A stretch of DNA of 56,973 nt from the NCBI GenBank assembly GCA_015488325.1, contig WFOA01000086.1:1-56973 (forward strand). The letters are read 5' to 3'. Position numbers and translations under genes: made by a program. Below are positions 11,354 through 16,559 of this stretch, piece after piece (positions within the stretch are counted from its first letter, which is position 1; each line of letters opens with the position of its first letter). A model generated the notes under the pieces. That model searched no databases. It had not been told where the DNA came from and was given only the letters and a program-made list of their open reading frames with translations. The DNA is from Acidimicrobiia bacterium. Its GTDB lineage: Bacteria > Actinomycetota > Acidimicrobiia > Spongiisociales > ZC4RG35.

Positions 11354-12097
11354 ATGGAAGGGTACGACGCGTCCACCTACGGCGAGCGGATCGCCGACGT
11401 CTATGACGACCAACCCGAGCATCTCGCCCTCGACACCGAGCGGACCGTCGAGGTCCTCGCCGACCTGGCCGGTGACGGTCCCGTCCTCGAGCTGGGGATC
11501 GGCACCGGAAGGGTGGCCCTGCCCCTCGCCGAACGGGGCATCGACGTCCACGGCATCGACGCCTCCCCGGCCATGGTGGAGCGGCTCCGGGCGAAGCCCG
11601 GCGGCGACCGGATCGCGGTCACCGTCGGAGACATGGCCGACGTTGTCGCCCCCGGTGATGGCTACAGCTTCGTCTATGTGGTGTTCAACACCTTCTTCGG
11701 GATCCTCACCCAGGACGACCAGGTCCGGTGCTTCCAAGGTGTTGCCTCCCGTCTCCGTCCCGGCGGCCGGTTCCTGATCGAAGCCTTCGTTCCCGACGTC
11801 ACCCGCTTCGATCGCGGCCAGCGGGTGGAGGTGAAGGACCTGTCCCTCGACGACGTTCTCCTCCACGTCGCCCGCCACGATCCCGTCGCCCAGCGGATCG
11901 ACACCGCCAACGTGTCCCTCGGCACCGGCGGGATCGGGGTGATGCCGATCGTCATCCGCTACGCCTACCCGACCGAGCTGGACCTCATGGCCCGCATCGC
12001 CGGTTTGGGGCGTGAGGCCCGGTGGGGCGGATGGGACCGGAGCACCTTCACCGCGGCTTCGCGATCCCACGTCACCGTCTACCGGGCACCTGTGTGA
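11354..12097 (+). CDS. Class I SAM-dependent methyltransferase
   Basis: 247 residues from ATG 11354; an in-frame ATG at 11342 would add four residues, and neither has a strong ribosome-binding site. Motif I is [16 protein letters not shown] (SAM binding), followed by [14 protein letters not shown] (acidic loop) and, later, [13 protein letters not shown]. It matches small-molecule methyltransferases of the Methyltransf_25 kind. The 3' end overlaps the convergent PIG-L gene by 19 bases. The substrate is unknown. Confidence 0.85.
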
Positions 12098-12744
12098 GCG
12101 GTGCCGGTCCCCGGGGGCCGCAGCCAGACCAGCCATTCTTCGTCGCCCAGCAGCTCCAGGCGGCGCCACAGCACCGGGTTGAGCTGGCTGGTATGGCGGC
12201 GACAGGCGCGGATGTGGCGTTCCCGGTCGACTTCGACTACCACGTCGGCGTGGGTCACCCCCTGAAACGTCGTCCCGAGCTCGTCGTTCAGGGCCGAGGC
12301 GACGTGGTGGGGGATGACCCATCCGAGGACGGCAGCTCCGGTGCGGCCGGCGGCGATGAGAGCTGCCTGGGTGGCCCGGATGTGGTCGGGGTGACCGGTG
12401 ACGCCTCCGGGACCGAAGACCAGAAGGCCGTCGGTTCGGTCGAGACGCGATTCGACGAGTTGGGCGATCCGTTCCAGCGGCACGGTGGAGAGGTTTCCGT
12501 CGGGCAGGTCGAGGATGTCCACCGAGTCGGCTCCGAGGTCCGTCGCCGCCATTCGCAGCTCTTCGGAACGGATACGGCGGAGTTCGCCTTCACCCAGGGT
12601 CGACGCTTCGCCGTGGGTGAGACAGAGGATGGAGACGTCGGTTCCGGCGTCGGTGAACCGGGCGACGACACCGCCGAGTCCGAAGGTCTCGTCGTCAGGA
12701 TGGGCGACGACGACCAGCATCGAGTCCCAGTCCGGCAGAGGCAC
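12079..12744 (-). CDS. PIG-L family LmbE-like deacetylase
   Basis: 221 residues from GTG 12744; an ATG eight codons further in (12720) is the alternative. The zinc motif AHPDDETFGLGG stands at the N-terminus and the second metal motif GHPDHIRA in the middle, as in MshB/LmbE/PIG-L enzymes. These remove acetyl groups from N-acetylglucosaminyl compounds, for example in mycothiol or bacillithiol synthesis. At 221 residues it is shorter than MshB (~300), so it is more like the generic LmbE group. It is divergent from the endonuclease V-like gene, with about 130 bases between. Confidence 0.88.
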   Translation of the reverse strand: MPLPDWDSMLVVVAHPDDETFGLGGVVARFTDAGTDVSILCLTHGEASTLGEGELRRIRSEELRMAATDLGADSVDILDLPDGNLSTVPLERIAQLVESRLDRTDGLLVFGPGGVTGHPDHIRATQAALIAAGRTGAAVLGWVIPHHVASALNDELGTTFQGVTHADVVVEVDRERHIRACRRHTSQLNPVLWRRLELLGDEEWLVWLRPPGTGTAHTGAR

Positions 12745-12874
12745 CCGGCCATGGTGGCCGACCTTCGCCGTCGCCGCCAGTCGACGACGCCGCGGTGGCG
12801 GGTATCCGGCCGGCGAGCCCGATCCGGGACCGACGACCCGGGCGGTAGCGCCGGCGGCCGGGCATGCTGAAGGG

Positions 12875-13537
12875 GTGTGGCCCATCGATGTCGACGAGCT
12901 GGTGGCGCTCCAGGAGCGGATCGCCCGGCTGGAGCCCGAACGTTGGGTCCCTCCACCGGACCCGGAGGTCGGGGGATGTTTCGTCTGTTTCGGGCGCGGC
13001 GGCGAAGGTCCGGGCTCGGAGGGTGACCAGGGATGGGCTGGGGCGGTGGCCGGTGATTCCGAGGCCGTGGTCGGAGGGGCCGCCGGGGCGCCGTACCGTC
13101 CCGGCTTGCTCGCCGCCCGGGAGGGGGCGCTCTTGGAGCGAGCCCTCCGGGCCCTGGGTCGCTTCCCCGACGTGCTCCTCGTCAACGCGGTGGGTCGCGA
13201 CCATCCCCGCCGGGCCGGGTTGGCGCTGCATCTCGGGTGGGTGCTGGACGTGCCCACCGTCGGAGTCACCCACCGCCCCCTGGTGGCGGAGGGGCCCTGG
13301 CCGGAGGACCAGCCTGGAGCGTCCGCCCCGCTGGAGATCGACGGCGACCAGGTCGGTGCCTGGGTTCGGACCAGGGTCGGTGCCCGCCCCCTGGCGGTGT
13401 CGGCGGGATGGCGGACCGACGTGGATGTGGCGGTGGGAGCCGTGTTGACGGCGGTGGGGCGGGCCCGGACGCCCGAGCCGATTCGGCGGGCCCGGGAACT
13501 GGCCCGTCGTGCCCGCAGCGGCTTTACGAGAGCTTGA
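12875..13537 (+). CDS. Endonuclease V-like protein with altered catalytic residues
   Basis: 220 residues from GTG 12875, with GAAGGG just upstream. Family features are clear: APYRPGLLAAREGALL, DHPRRAGLALHLG and PTVGVTH. Compared by memory with Thermotoga EndoV, the first catalytic Asp (in AGVDLSF) is replaced in GGCFVCF. Glu83 is kept, but the later Asp (FDGQG) is Asn104 in VNAVGRDHP, and the AKSRL lysine is His. Classical endonuclease V nicks DNA or RNA one base after deoxyinosine/inosine. With two metal ligands changed, this protein may bind without cutting or use another chemistry. I believe similar variant sequences exist in actinobacteria, but I cannot verify it here. Confidence 0.8.
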   Translation: MWPIDVDELVALQERIARLEPERWVPPPDPEVGGCFVCFGRGGEGPGSEGDQGWAGAVAGDSEAVVGGAAGAPYRPGLLAAREGALLERALRALGRFPDVLLVNAVGRDHPRRAGLALHLGWVLDVPTVGVTHRPLVAEGPWPEDQPGASAPLEIDGDQVGAWVRTRVGARPLAVSAGWRTDVDVAVGAVLTAVGRARTPEPIRRARELARRARSGFTRA

Positions 13538-15632: not shown

Positions 15633-16559
15633 GTGAGCGGGCCGCGTGACCTGGCTCTCCGGGGTCTCTACCTGGGGACGGCTTCGTGGACCGACCCGAC
15701 CCTCGTCGAGTCGGGGAGGTTCTACCCGTCCAAGGACATGACCGCCGAGGAGCGGCTCCGCTTCTACGCCGAGCGGTTCCCTCTGGTCGAAGTCGACTCG
15801 ACCTACTACGCGCCCCCGTCGGAGCGTCTCGCCGGCCTGTGGGTGACCCGCACCCCGGCCGACTTCGTCTTCGACGTCAAGGCTTTCCGGCTCCTCACCC
15901 AGCATCCCACCCCGCCTTCGAGTCTGTGGAAGGACCTGCGGGACGAGGTCCCGACGGAGCTCGTGACCAAACGCCACCTCTACGTTCGGGATCTCCCCTC
16001 CGAGCTGGTCGACGAAGCGTTCGCGCGGTTTGCGTCGGCGCTGACGCCGCTACGTTCGGCCGGCAAGCTCGGGGTGATCCTCTTCCAGCTCCCGCCCTAC
16101 CTGTATCCCACCAGGGCCTCGTTCCGGTATCTGGCCGAAGTCGCCACCCGGTTGGAAGGGTTCACGGTGGCGGTCGAGTTCCGCAACGGCAGGTGGCTGG
16201 ACGAAGAGCATCGTGACGTGACCTTCGAGTTCCTCGCCGAACACCGCCTCGTCTACGTCGCCGTCGACGAACCCCAAGGGTTCCGGAGCTCGGTACCGCC
16301 GGTGGTGGAGGTGACCAACCGGGGGATCGCCGTCGTCAGGTTCCATGGACGCAACGCCGAGACCTGGGAGGCGAAGGGGATCTCGGCGGCGGAACGGTTC
16401 CGCTACGAGTACCGGCCCGAGGAGCTGGCGGAATGGGTTCCTCGGATCCGTCGCCTCCGCGAGGACGCCGACCGGGTCCACTTGGTGTTCAACAACTGCT
16501 ACGCCGACTACGGGGTCCGTGCCGCCCTGCTCTTCGCCGAGCTGCTGGCGTCGACGTGA
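15633..16559 (+). CDS. DUF72 family protein (YecE-like)
   Basis: 308 residues, GTG start. It shows the DUF72 pattern: LYLGTASWTD at the N-terminus, FYPSKDM, EVDSTYYAPP, FDVKAFRLLT, GVILFQLPPYL, AVEFRNGRWL and a closing HLVFNNCYADYGV. The fold is a TIM barrel related to AP endonuclease families; the biochemical role is not settled. Its last 71 bases overlap the convergent fahA gene. Confidence 0.9.
   Translation: MSGPRDLALRGLYLGTASWTDPTLVESGRFYPSKDMTAEERLRFYAERFPLVEVDSTYYAPPSERLAGLWVTRTPADFVFDVKAFRLLTQHPTPPSSLWKDLRDEVPTELVTKRHLYVRDLPSELVDEAFARFASALTPLRSAGKLGVILFQLPPYLYPTRASFRYLAEVATRLEGFTVAVEFRNGRWLDEEHRDVTFEFLAEHRLVYVAVDEPQGFRSSVPPVVEVTNRGIAVVRFHGRNAETWEAKGISAAERFRYEYRPEELAEWVPRIRRLREDADRVHLVFNNCYADYGVRAALLFAELLAST

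Follow-up and report, generated by a model that had tools for sequence, protein, structure and literature searches.

We identified a gene of the endonuclease V (EndoV) family on the forward strand of the analysed stretch of DNA, which comprises 56,973 nucleotides and is referred to as the window (Table 1). The chosen start codon is consistent with an N-terminal WP that is conserved among aligned relatives. The encoded protein matched Pfam family PF04493 (Endonuclease_5) with 120.9 bits (cut-off 23.4, E = 7e-35) and solved EndoV chains in phmmer searches with E-values down to 1.2e-24, far beyond chance, which confirms the EndoV homology noted in an earlier reading made from the letters of this DNA (the sequence-only reading). 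Profile comparison with canonical EndoV by hhalign gave a probability of 100 and an E-value of 1.5e-41. Scores against the NCBIfam EndoV equivalogs NF008629 (119.6 bits, cut-off 230) and NF041102 (92 bits, cut-off 300) were below threshold. The gene is the sole PF04493 match in the host genome (2.89 Mb, 98.45% complete). Its nearest named relative is L031, from a congeneric Acidimicrobiia MAG, with 79% identity, and the L031 contig matches the window DNA in three blocks around the EndoV-like gene. No Rfam match at the gathering threshold was found within the window. On the opposite strand, the frame of a PIG-L deacetylase extends open into the EndoV-like gene; this frame is open for 396 aa with its domain confined to residues 185–305, and the overlap is an overprinting artefact of high GC that could mislead gene callers.

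Table 1. Positions of the EndoV-like gene, its sequence features and adjoining elements in the window (Tm, T. maritima EndoV).
Feature	Position	Strand	Description	Basis
Possible -10 element CATGCT	12863..12868	+	6 nt before start codon; not exact TANNNT	
EndoV-like gene	12875..13537	+	220 aa, GTG start, stop 13535-13537	reading frame, Pfam match
First beta strand VGGCFVCF, residues 32-39	12968..12991	+	F36 in place of catalytic D43	
Clade-specific glycine-rich beta1-beta2 hairpin, residues 40-54 (GRGGEGPGSEGDQGW)	12992..13036	+		alignment
Wedge PYRP, residues 73-76	13091..13102	+	Tm PYIP	
Pocket G77, L79; R82; E83	13103..13123	+	R82 = Tm R88; E83 = Tm E89	residue alignment
N104 and pocket loop A105-G115	13184..13219	+	N104 = Tm D110; new R108-D109 before H110	residue alignment
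T132-H133-R134-P-L136	13268..13282	+	H133 in place of Tm K139	
S176-A-G-W179 loop	13400..13411	+	Tm S182-P-G-H185	residue alignment
R207	13493..13495	+	replaces Tm H214; R in 85/86 variants	
PIG-L deacetylase frame	12079-13269	-	runs into opposite strand of EndoV-like gene	
DUF72 gene	15633-16559			

Active-site residues were mapped by phmmer alignment to T. maritima (Tm) EndoV (6ozf) with residues counted along it, the first four positions also against E. coli nfi, and conservation was counted over 86 distinct variant proteins (window included) and 41 canonical ones. Four of the five active-site positions are changed in the window protein. F36 stands at the position of Tm D43 (D35 in E. coli), which we take to be equivalent also to D52 of mouse EndoV, and N104, H133 and, by residue counting, R207 stand at those of Tm D110, K139 and H214; E83 keeps the Glu of Tm E89. 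The sequence-only reading had recognised the block GGCFVCF at the first Asp, the Asn at the later Asp and the His in place of Lys, all of which the alignment bears out. Its statement that two catalytic residues are missing is correct for these two and understates the change, because the replacement of H214 by Arg had gone unnoticed. In the EndoV product complex, D43, Q89 and D110 contact the metal, and K139 and H214 lock the phosphate (excerpts of PMC4650699); we read Q89 in this complex as an E89Q protein. The same source gives E. coli D210 as the counterpart of Tm H214, whereas by our count the Asp of the E. coli nfi protein is at 206.

Judged by its sequence, the gene is a member of a separate sister family of EndoV that is scattered over many bacterial phyla. 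An alignment of ten relatives was scanned against GTDB genomes and yielded at least 80 loci, so that the true size of the family may exceed the present count. For the residue counts, 110 loci were pooled, ten of odd length were dropped (L093, L095, L103, L007, L013, L109, L028, L023, L110, and L024), duplicates were merged, and the canonical L022 and L108 were moved to the control set. The fragment L101 and L107, a second, odd copy in one genome, were left out (with both, D109 is found in 87/88), and four Verrucomicrobiota variants were added, one of them the fragment L177 that lacks strand 1, giving a total of 86 proteins with the window. According to record titles, which belong to many MAGs and may include some wrong labels, members derive from Actinomycetota, Armatimonadota, Acidobacteriota, Verrucomicrobiota, Deinococcota (Trueperaceae), Myxococcota, Chloroflexota, Dormiibacterota, Fidelibacterota, Sysuimicrobiota, and Bacillota. 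Quick phylogenetic analysis with IQ-TREE (unrooted, no bootstrap) placed 85 variants and 25 canonical proteins on opposite sides of a single branch (SH-aLRT 100), a split compatible with an origin of the variant either from or beside canonical EndoV. The length of this dividing branch is to be taken with care, as 17 rows have an unusual residue composition (ten of the 12 named are canonical). The clade sharing the active-site changes that the sequence-only reading had envisaged thus exists. The gene is under purifying selection, with a dN/dS of 0.21 between the window and L031 and of 0.16–0.40 in 16 hand-chosen pairs, which speaks against simple decay, as that reading had argued from one well-formed sequence block.

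At position 36, the variants have Phe (n = 71), Trp (n = 5), Tyr (n = 4), Ala (n = 3), Ile (n = 1), Val (n = 1), or, in a fragment, a gap, compared with Asp in 41/41 canonical proteins, and neither Asp nor Glu occurs anywhere in residues 32–39 of the 85 variant rows that hold strand 1. The first metal-binding acid of EndoV has accordingly been lost from the family. Position 83 is occupied by Glu (n = 66), Asp (n = 4), or Ala, Val, Leu, Ile, and Cys in the remainder. The Glu83 that the sequence-only reading reported as kept is thus present in the window, whereas it is no pillar of the variant family. Position 104 has Asp (n = 48) or Asn (n = 36), with Ala and His once each. At position 133, which is Lys in 41/41 canonical proteins, Lys is found in none of the 86 variants (His, n = 46; Asp, n = 24; Arg, n = 10; Asn, n = 3; Gln, Ala, and Thr, n = 1 each). 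Position 207, His (n = 31) or Asp (n = 10) in the canonical set, is Arg in all variants except one with Leu. The positions of Tm D43, E89, D110, and K139 have a conservation rank of just 37–56% among the 86 variants.

The base-reading part of the protein has been kept. The hypoxanthine pocket of Tm EndoV is formed by G83, L85, G111, G113, G121, and L142 and reads the base by backbone contacts (excerpts of PMC4650699, from which our definitions of pocket and wedge were taken). Its counterparts in the window protein are G77, L79, A105, G107, G115, and L136, with the replacement of G111 by A105 as the one change, and the six positions are in the top 11% of the conservation rank. Conserved among the variants are G77 (86/86), L79 (84/86), R82 (86/86), L136 (86/86), and, in the pocket loop, A105 (85/86), G107 (83/86), H110 (84/86), and G115 (86/86). 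The wedge tyrosine Y74 (Tm Y80) is present in 85/86 variants; both wedge prolines are less conserved.

Several other residues have become fixed in the variant family. D109 is found in all 86 variants, at a position that is Ala in 37 of the 41 canonical proteins, and T132 (85/86), R108 (81/86), R134 (80/86), W179 (82/86), and W54 (81/86) are similarly constant. His occupies position 176 in 81/86 variants, with Ser in the window and L031, and the D51 position is acidic in 83/86. D51 lies in the glycine-rich hairpin, and 40 of the 41 canonical rows have gaps at columns 45 and 47 of this hairpin. The Verrucomicrobiota proteins L178, L179, and L180 form a divergent branch in which W179 is replaced by Tyr and pocket residue G107 by Ser, while position 133 is Arg, changes that provide a natural series usable for testing specificity.

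An AlphaFold2 model built with 69 family members (pLDDT 93.5, pTM 0.91) predicts the fold to be that of EndoV. The model superimposed on Tm EndoV D110N with inosine DNA (6ozf) with a Z-score of 27.4 (1.9 Å, 210 residues), and its best 22 matches among solved entries were all EndoV, in agreement with the fold-defining blocks that the sequence-only reading had described as kept. Next after the EndoV entries came 2qh9 (Z = 13.0), followed by Argonautes at about 11. Model confidence is lowest at residues 101–120, which contain the pocket loop (block means 74 and 82).

In comparison with canonical EndoV (T. maritima, E. coli nfi), the variants share the fold, the profile, the wedge Tyr, the positions of Tm R88 and H116, and the hypoxanthine pocket at five of its six positions. 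They differ in the missing D43 equivalent, in Asp or Asn at the D110 position, in a K139 position that is never Lys, in Arg at the H214 position and Ala at pocket G111, in the extra glycine-rich hairpin, and in the new residues R108, D109, T132, R134, H176 (Ser in the window), and W179. Two laboratory mutants resemble the variants in having a changed active-site Asp, and these mutants still bind inosine-containing nucleic acid. Mouse EndoV D52A, a mutant of what is called 'the catalytic aspartate', cut nothing tested and gave stronger shifts with inosine RNA than the wild type (excerpts of PMC4842958), and Tm D110N, the same change as N104 of the window, was crystallised with inosine DNA (entry title of 6ozf). 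These are single point changes and not a natural lineage with fixed residues of its own. Among the listed titles and abstract openings of openly accessible, formally published literature, the only natural EndoV-like family described without the first Asp was Endo_dU (DUF99). Endo_dU has an EndoV-like RNase H fold, lacks a conserved first Asp, and has His, Arg, or Lys at the fourth position, features shared by the variant with F36 and R207, yet it cuts dU-containing DNA; a novel mechanism, itself unresolved, was proposed, and activity was unaffected by D10A alone and affected in the double mutant D10A-H166A (excerpts of PMC11585767). It would thus be a parallel case to the variant, described in one paper. 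By sequence similarity, however, the window protein is on the EndoV side: PF04493 alone was matched, with no match to PF01949 (DUF99) at E ≤ 0.001, and the Z-score of 13.0 was obtained with 2qh9, the DUF99 protein of A. fulgidus (excerpts of PMC11585767), as opposed to 27.4 with EndoV.

Genomic neighbourhoods of the window gene and 77 further loci (78 in total, 53 of them flanked by at least 3 kb in both directions) were compared by clustering reading frames of at least 80 aa. No gene is common to most of the 78 neighbourhoods, which fits a protein that acts alone. The largest cluster (67 loci) consists of the frame antisense to the variant gene itself, and the next two are generic: ABC transporters with 14 loci and short-chain dehydrogenases with 8, as labelled from example sequences. 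The DUF72 gene about 2 kb downstream in the window is the sole DUF72 match in the genome, and a DUF72 gene lies next to the variant gene, in divergent orientation, in 4/77 loci (L042, L045, L055, and L068). These four loci form one subclade and the L031 contig has no DNA match across the DUF72 stretch of the window, so that a partnership was rejected as probably due to chance. A pattern scan of IMG/VR matched 55 stretches, none of which was confirmed as a relative, and PLSDB returned 19 records, none covering 80% of the query and all with less than 60% identity; among ten of the 19 records, three had an annotated feature, nfi. The three members scanned against PADLOC-DB 2.0.0 matched no family at E ≤ 0.01.

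Occurrence of the gene is patchy. Matches were found in 2/34 listed genomes of the same family, in 12/138 genomes of the order, and in 23/395 genomes of the class, the last including the canonical L022 and the weak G164 and G361, which may be of either type. Some matches are fragments and one contains an internal stop (L007). One actinobacterial MAG (G764) has two variant copies, L046 and L107; the latter, with R36 and N109, is possibly decaying. Split by score, 78 of the 79 genomes behind the loci (at least 80) have a match in the variant range (27–148 bits), two of them, both Kribbella, also have a canonical match (241.8 and 230.4 bits), and one has a canonical match only. In these two Kribbella genomes (L043, L050), which hold both canonical EndoV and the variant, the variant is therefore a separate gene, and they would allow genetic separation of the two roles. 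Among 396 Actinomycetota genomes, again split by score, 94 had matches of at least 165 bits, 14 had only matches of at most 133 bits, including some fragments of unchecked type, and none had both. Mutual exclusion of the two forms was discarded; the signal is weak, with about three co-occurrences expected by chance, and is broken by the Kribbella genomes.

Pfam-based pipelines will label the variants as EndoV though residues needed by the known cutting mechanism are missing, and their function is probably other than this automatic name. To our knowledge, no activity has been described for any member. We tentatively favour, with slightly less than even confidence, a self-sufficient, re-tooled enzyme that flips and reads a base and acts by a rebuilt site without classical EndoV metal chemistry. 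The protein would bind DNA or RNA and flip a nucleotide, modified or deaminated, into the kept pocket, where a hypoxanthine-like base may be held. Chemistry would then be performed by the pair D109-H110 together with T132/R134 and R207, in most relatives possibly also H176; the strand-opening and base-holding half of EndoV would be retained, and the metal-cutting half replaced. Judging from the strand order of the fold, D109, T132, H176, and R207 would face the same cleft. The Ser at position 176 in the window and L031 weakens the case for H176 as a candidate catalytic residue, and the rebuilt-site reading is itself weakened by the low model confidence of the pocket loop. D109 could serve in binding or specificity rather than in catalysis. 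A more specific form of this reading, in which EndoV-fold enzymes across phyla perform a metal-independent processing of the flipped nucleotide centred on D109 beside His110, for example glycosylase-like or phosphodiester-cleaving, we consider rather unlikely; the surveyed portions of the literature report no metal-independent chemistry of that kind for EndoV.

The main rival, plausible and somewhat less probable than a re-tooled enzyme, is a reader that would recognise inosine, or some other unusual base, in DNA or RNA by binding and flipping it without cutting, and would mark or shield the site or hand it over to another repair system. It would account for a pocket and wedge Tyr that are kept alongside a first metal Asp that is lost throughout, and is in line with the inosine DNA complex of Tm D110N and with the frequent inactivity of proteins with incomplete RNase H-like active sites (excerpts of PMC3985635). 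As D52A abolishes cutting and strengthens binding in the mouse enzyme, natural loss of that Asp predicts a base-binding protein. A pure binder, however, need not fix new polar residues near the old active site, as seen for D109, T132, and R207, and no common neighbour qualifies as the partner of a reader, though such a partner gene could lie at another locus. We rank a rebuilt enzyme above a pure reader because of the two features shared with Endo_dU, the invariant Asp in the pocket loop, and the lack of shared neighbours. An inosine reader and a new enzyme had both been raised as alternatives in the sequence-only reading, and a pocket kept but for one G-to-A change is compatible with either.

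It is improbable that the variants are ordinary EndoV-type metal nucleases that bind the metal via E83, residue 104 (Asp or Asn), and a new acid, for example D109 or D51. Glu or Asp at position 83 occurs together with D104 in 36/86 rows, which could have an EndoV-like site that is weak or uses a single metal, and D109 is invariant and the D51 position mostly acidic. As to the substitute acids at the metal site that the sequence-only reading had considered, strand 1 offers none, and D109 or D51 remain as candidates. Against such a nuclease, both old acids vary, with no clear association between positions 83 and 104 (Fisher p = 0.10), which agrees with a metal site having ceased to constrain these residues, and 4/86 rows have neither acid; the Lys of the K139 position is gone, Arg is nearly universal at the H214 position, and mutation of the catalytic Asp abolishes cutting by mouse EndoV (excerpts of PMC4842958). 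A decaying or fortuitous reading frame, to which lost catalytic residues, patchy distribution, fragments, and the internal stop of L007 might point, is scarcely credible given a dN/dS of about 0.2 and 86 distinct proteins with fixed residues.

The variant family offers a test case for the re-tooling of a repair nuclease. Its natural replacements are self-consistent and separate base reading from metal cutting within one fold, and a possible use would be as an inosine- or damage-binding reagent.

Upstream of the window gene we noted a possible -10 element. We compared the 40 nt that precede the start codon, chosen by script, in 82 variant genes: TANNNT lies 6 nt from the start in 9/82, and no other spacing occurs in more than 2/82. 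This -10-like hexamer suggests leaderless transcripts.
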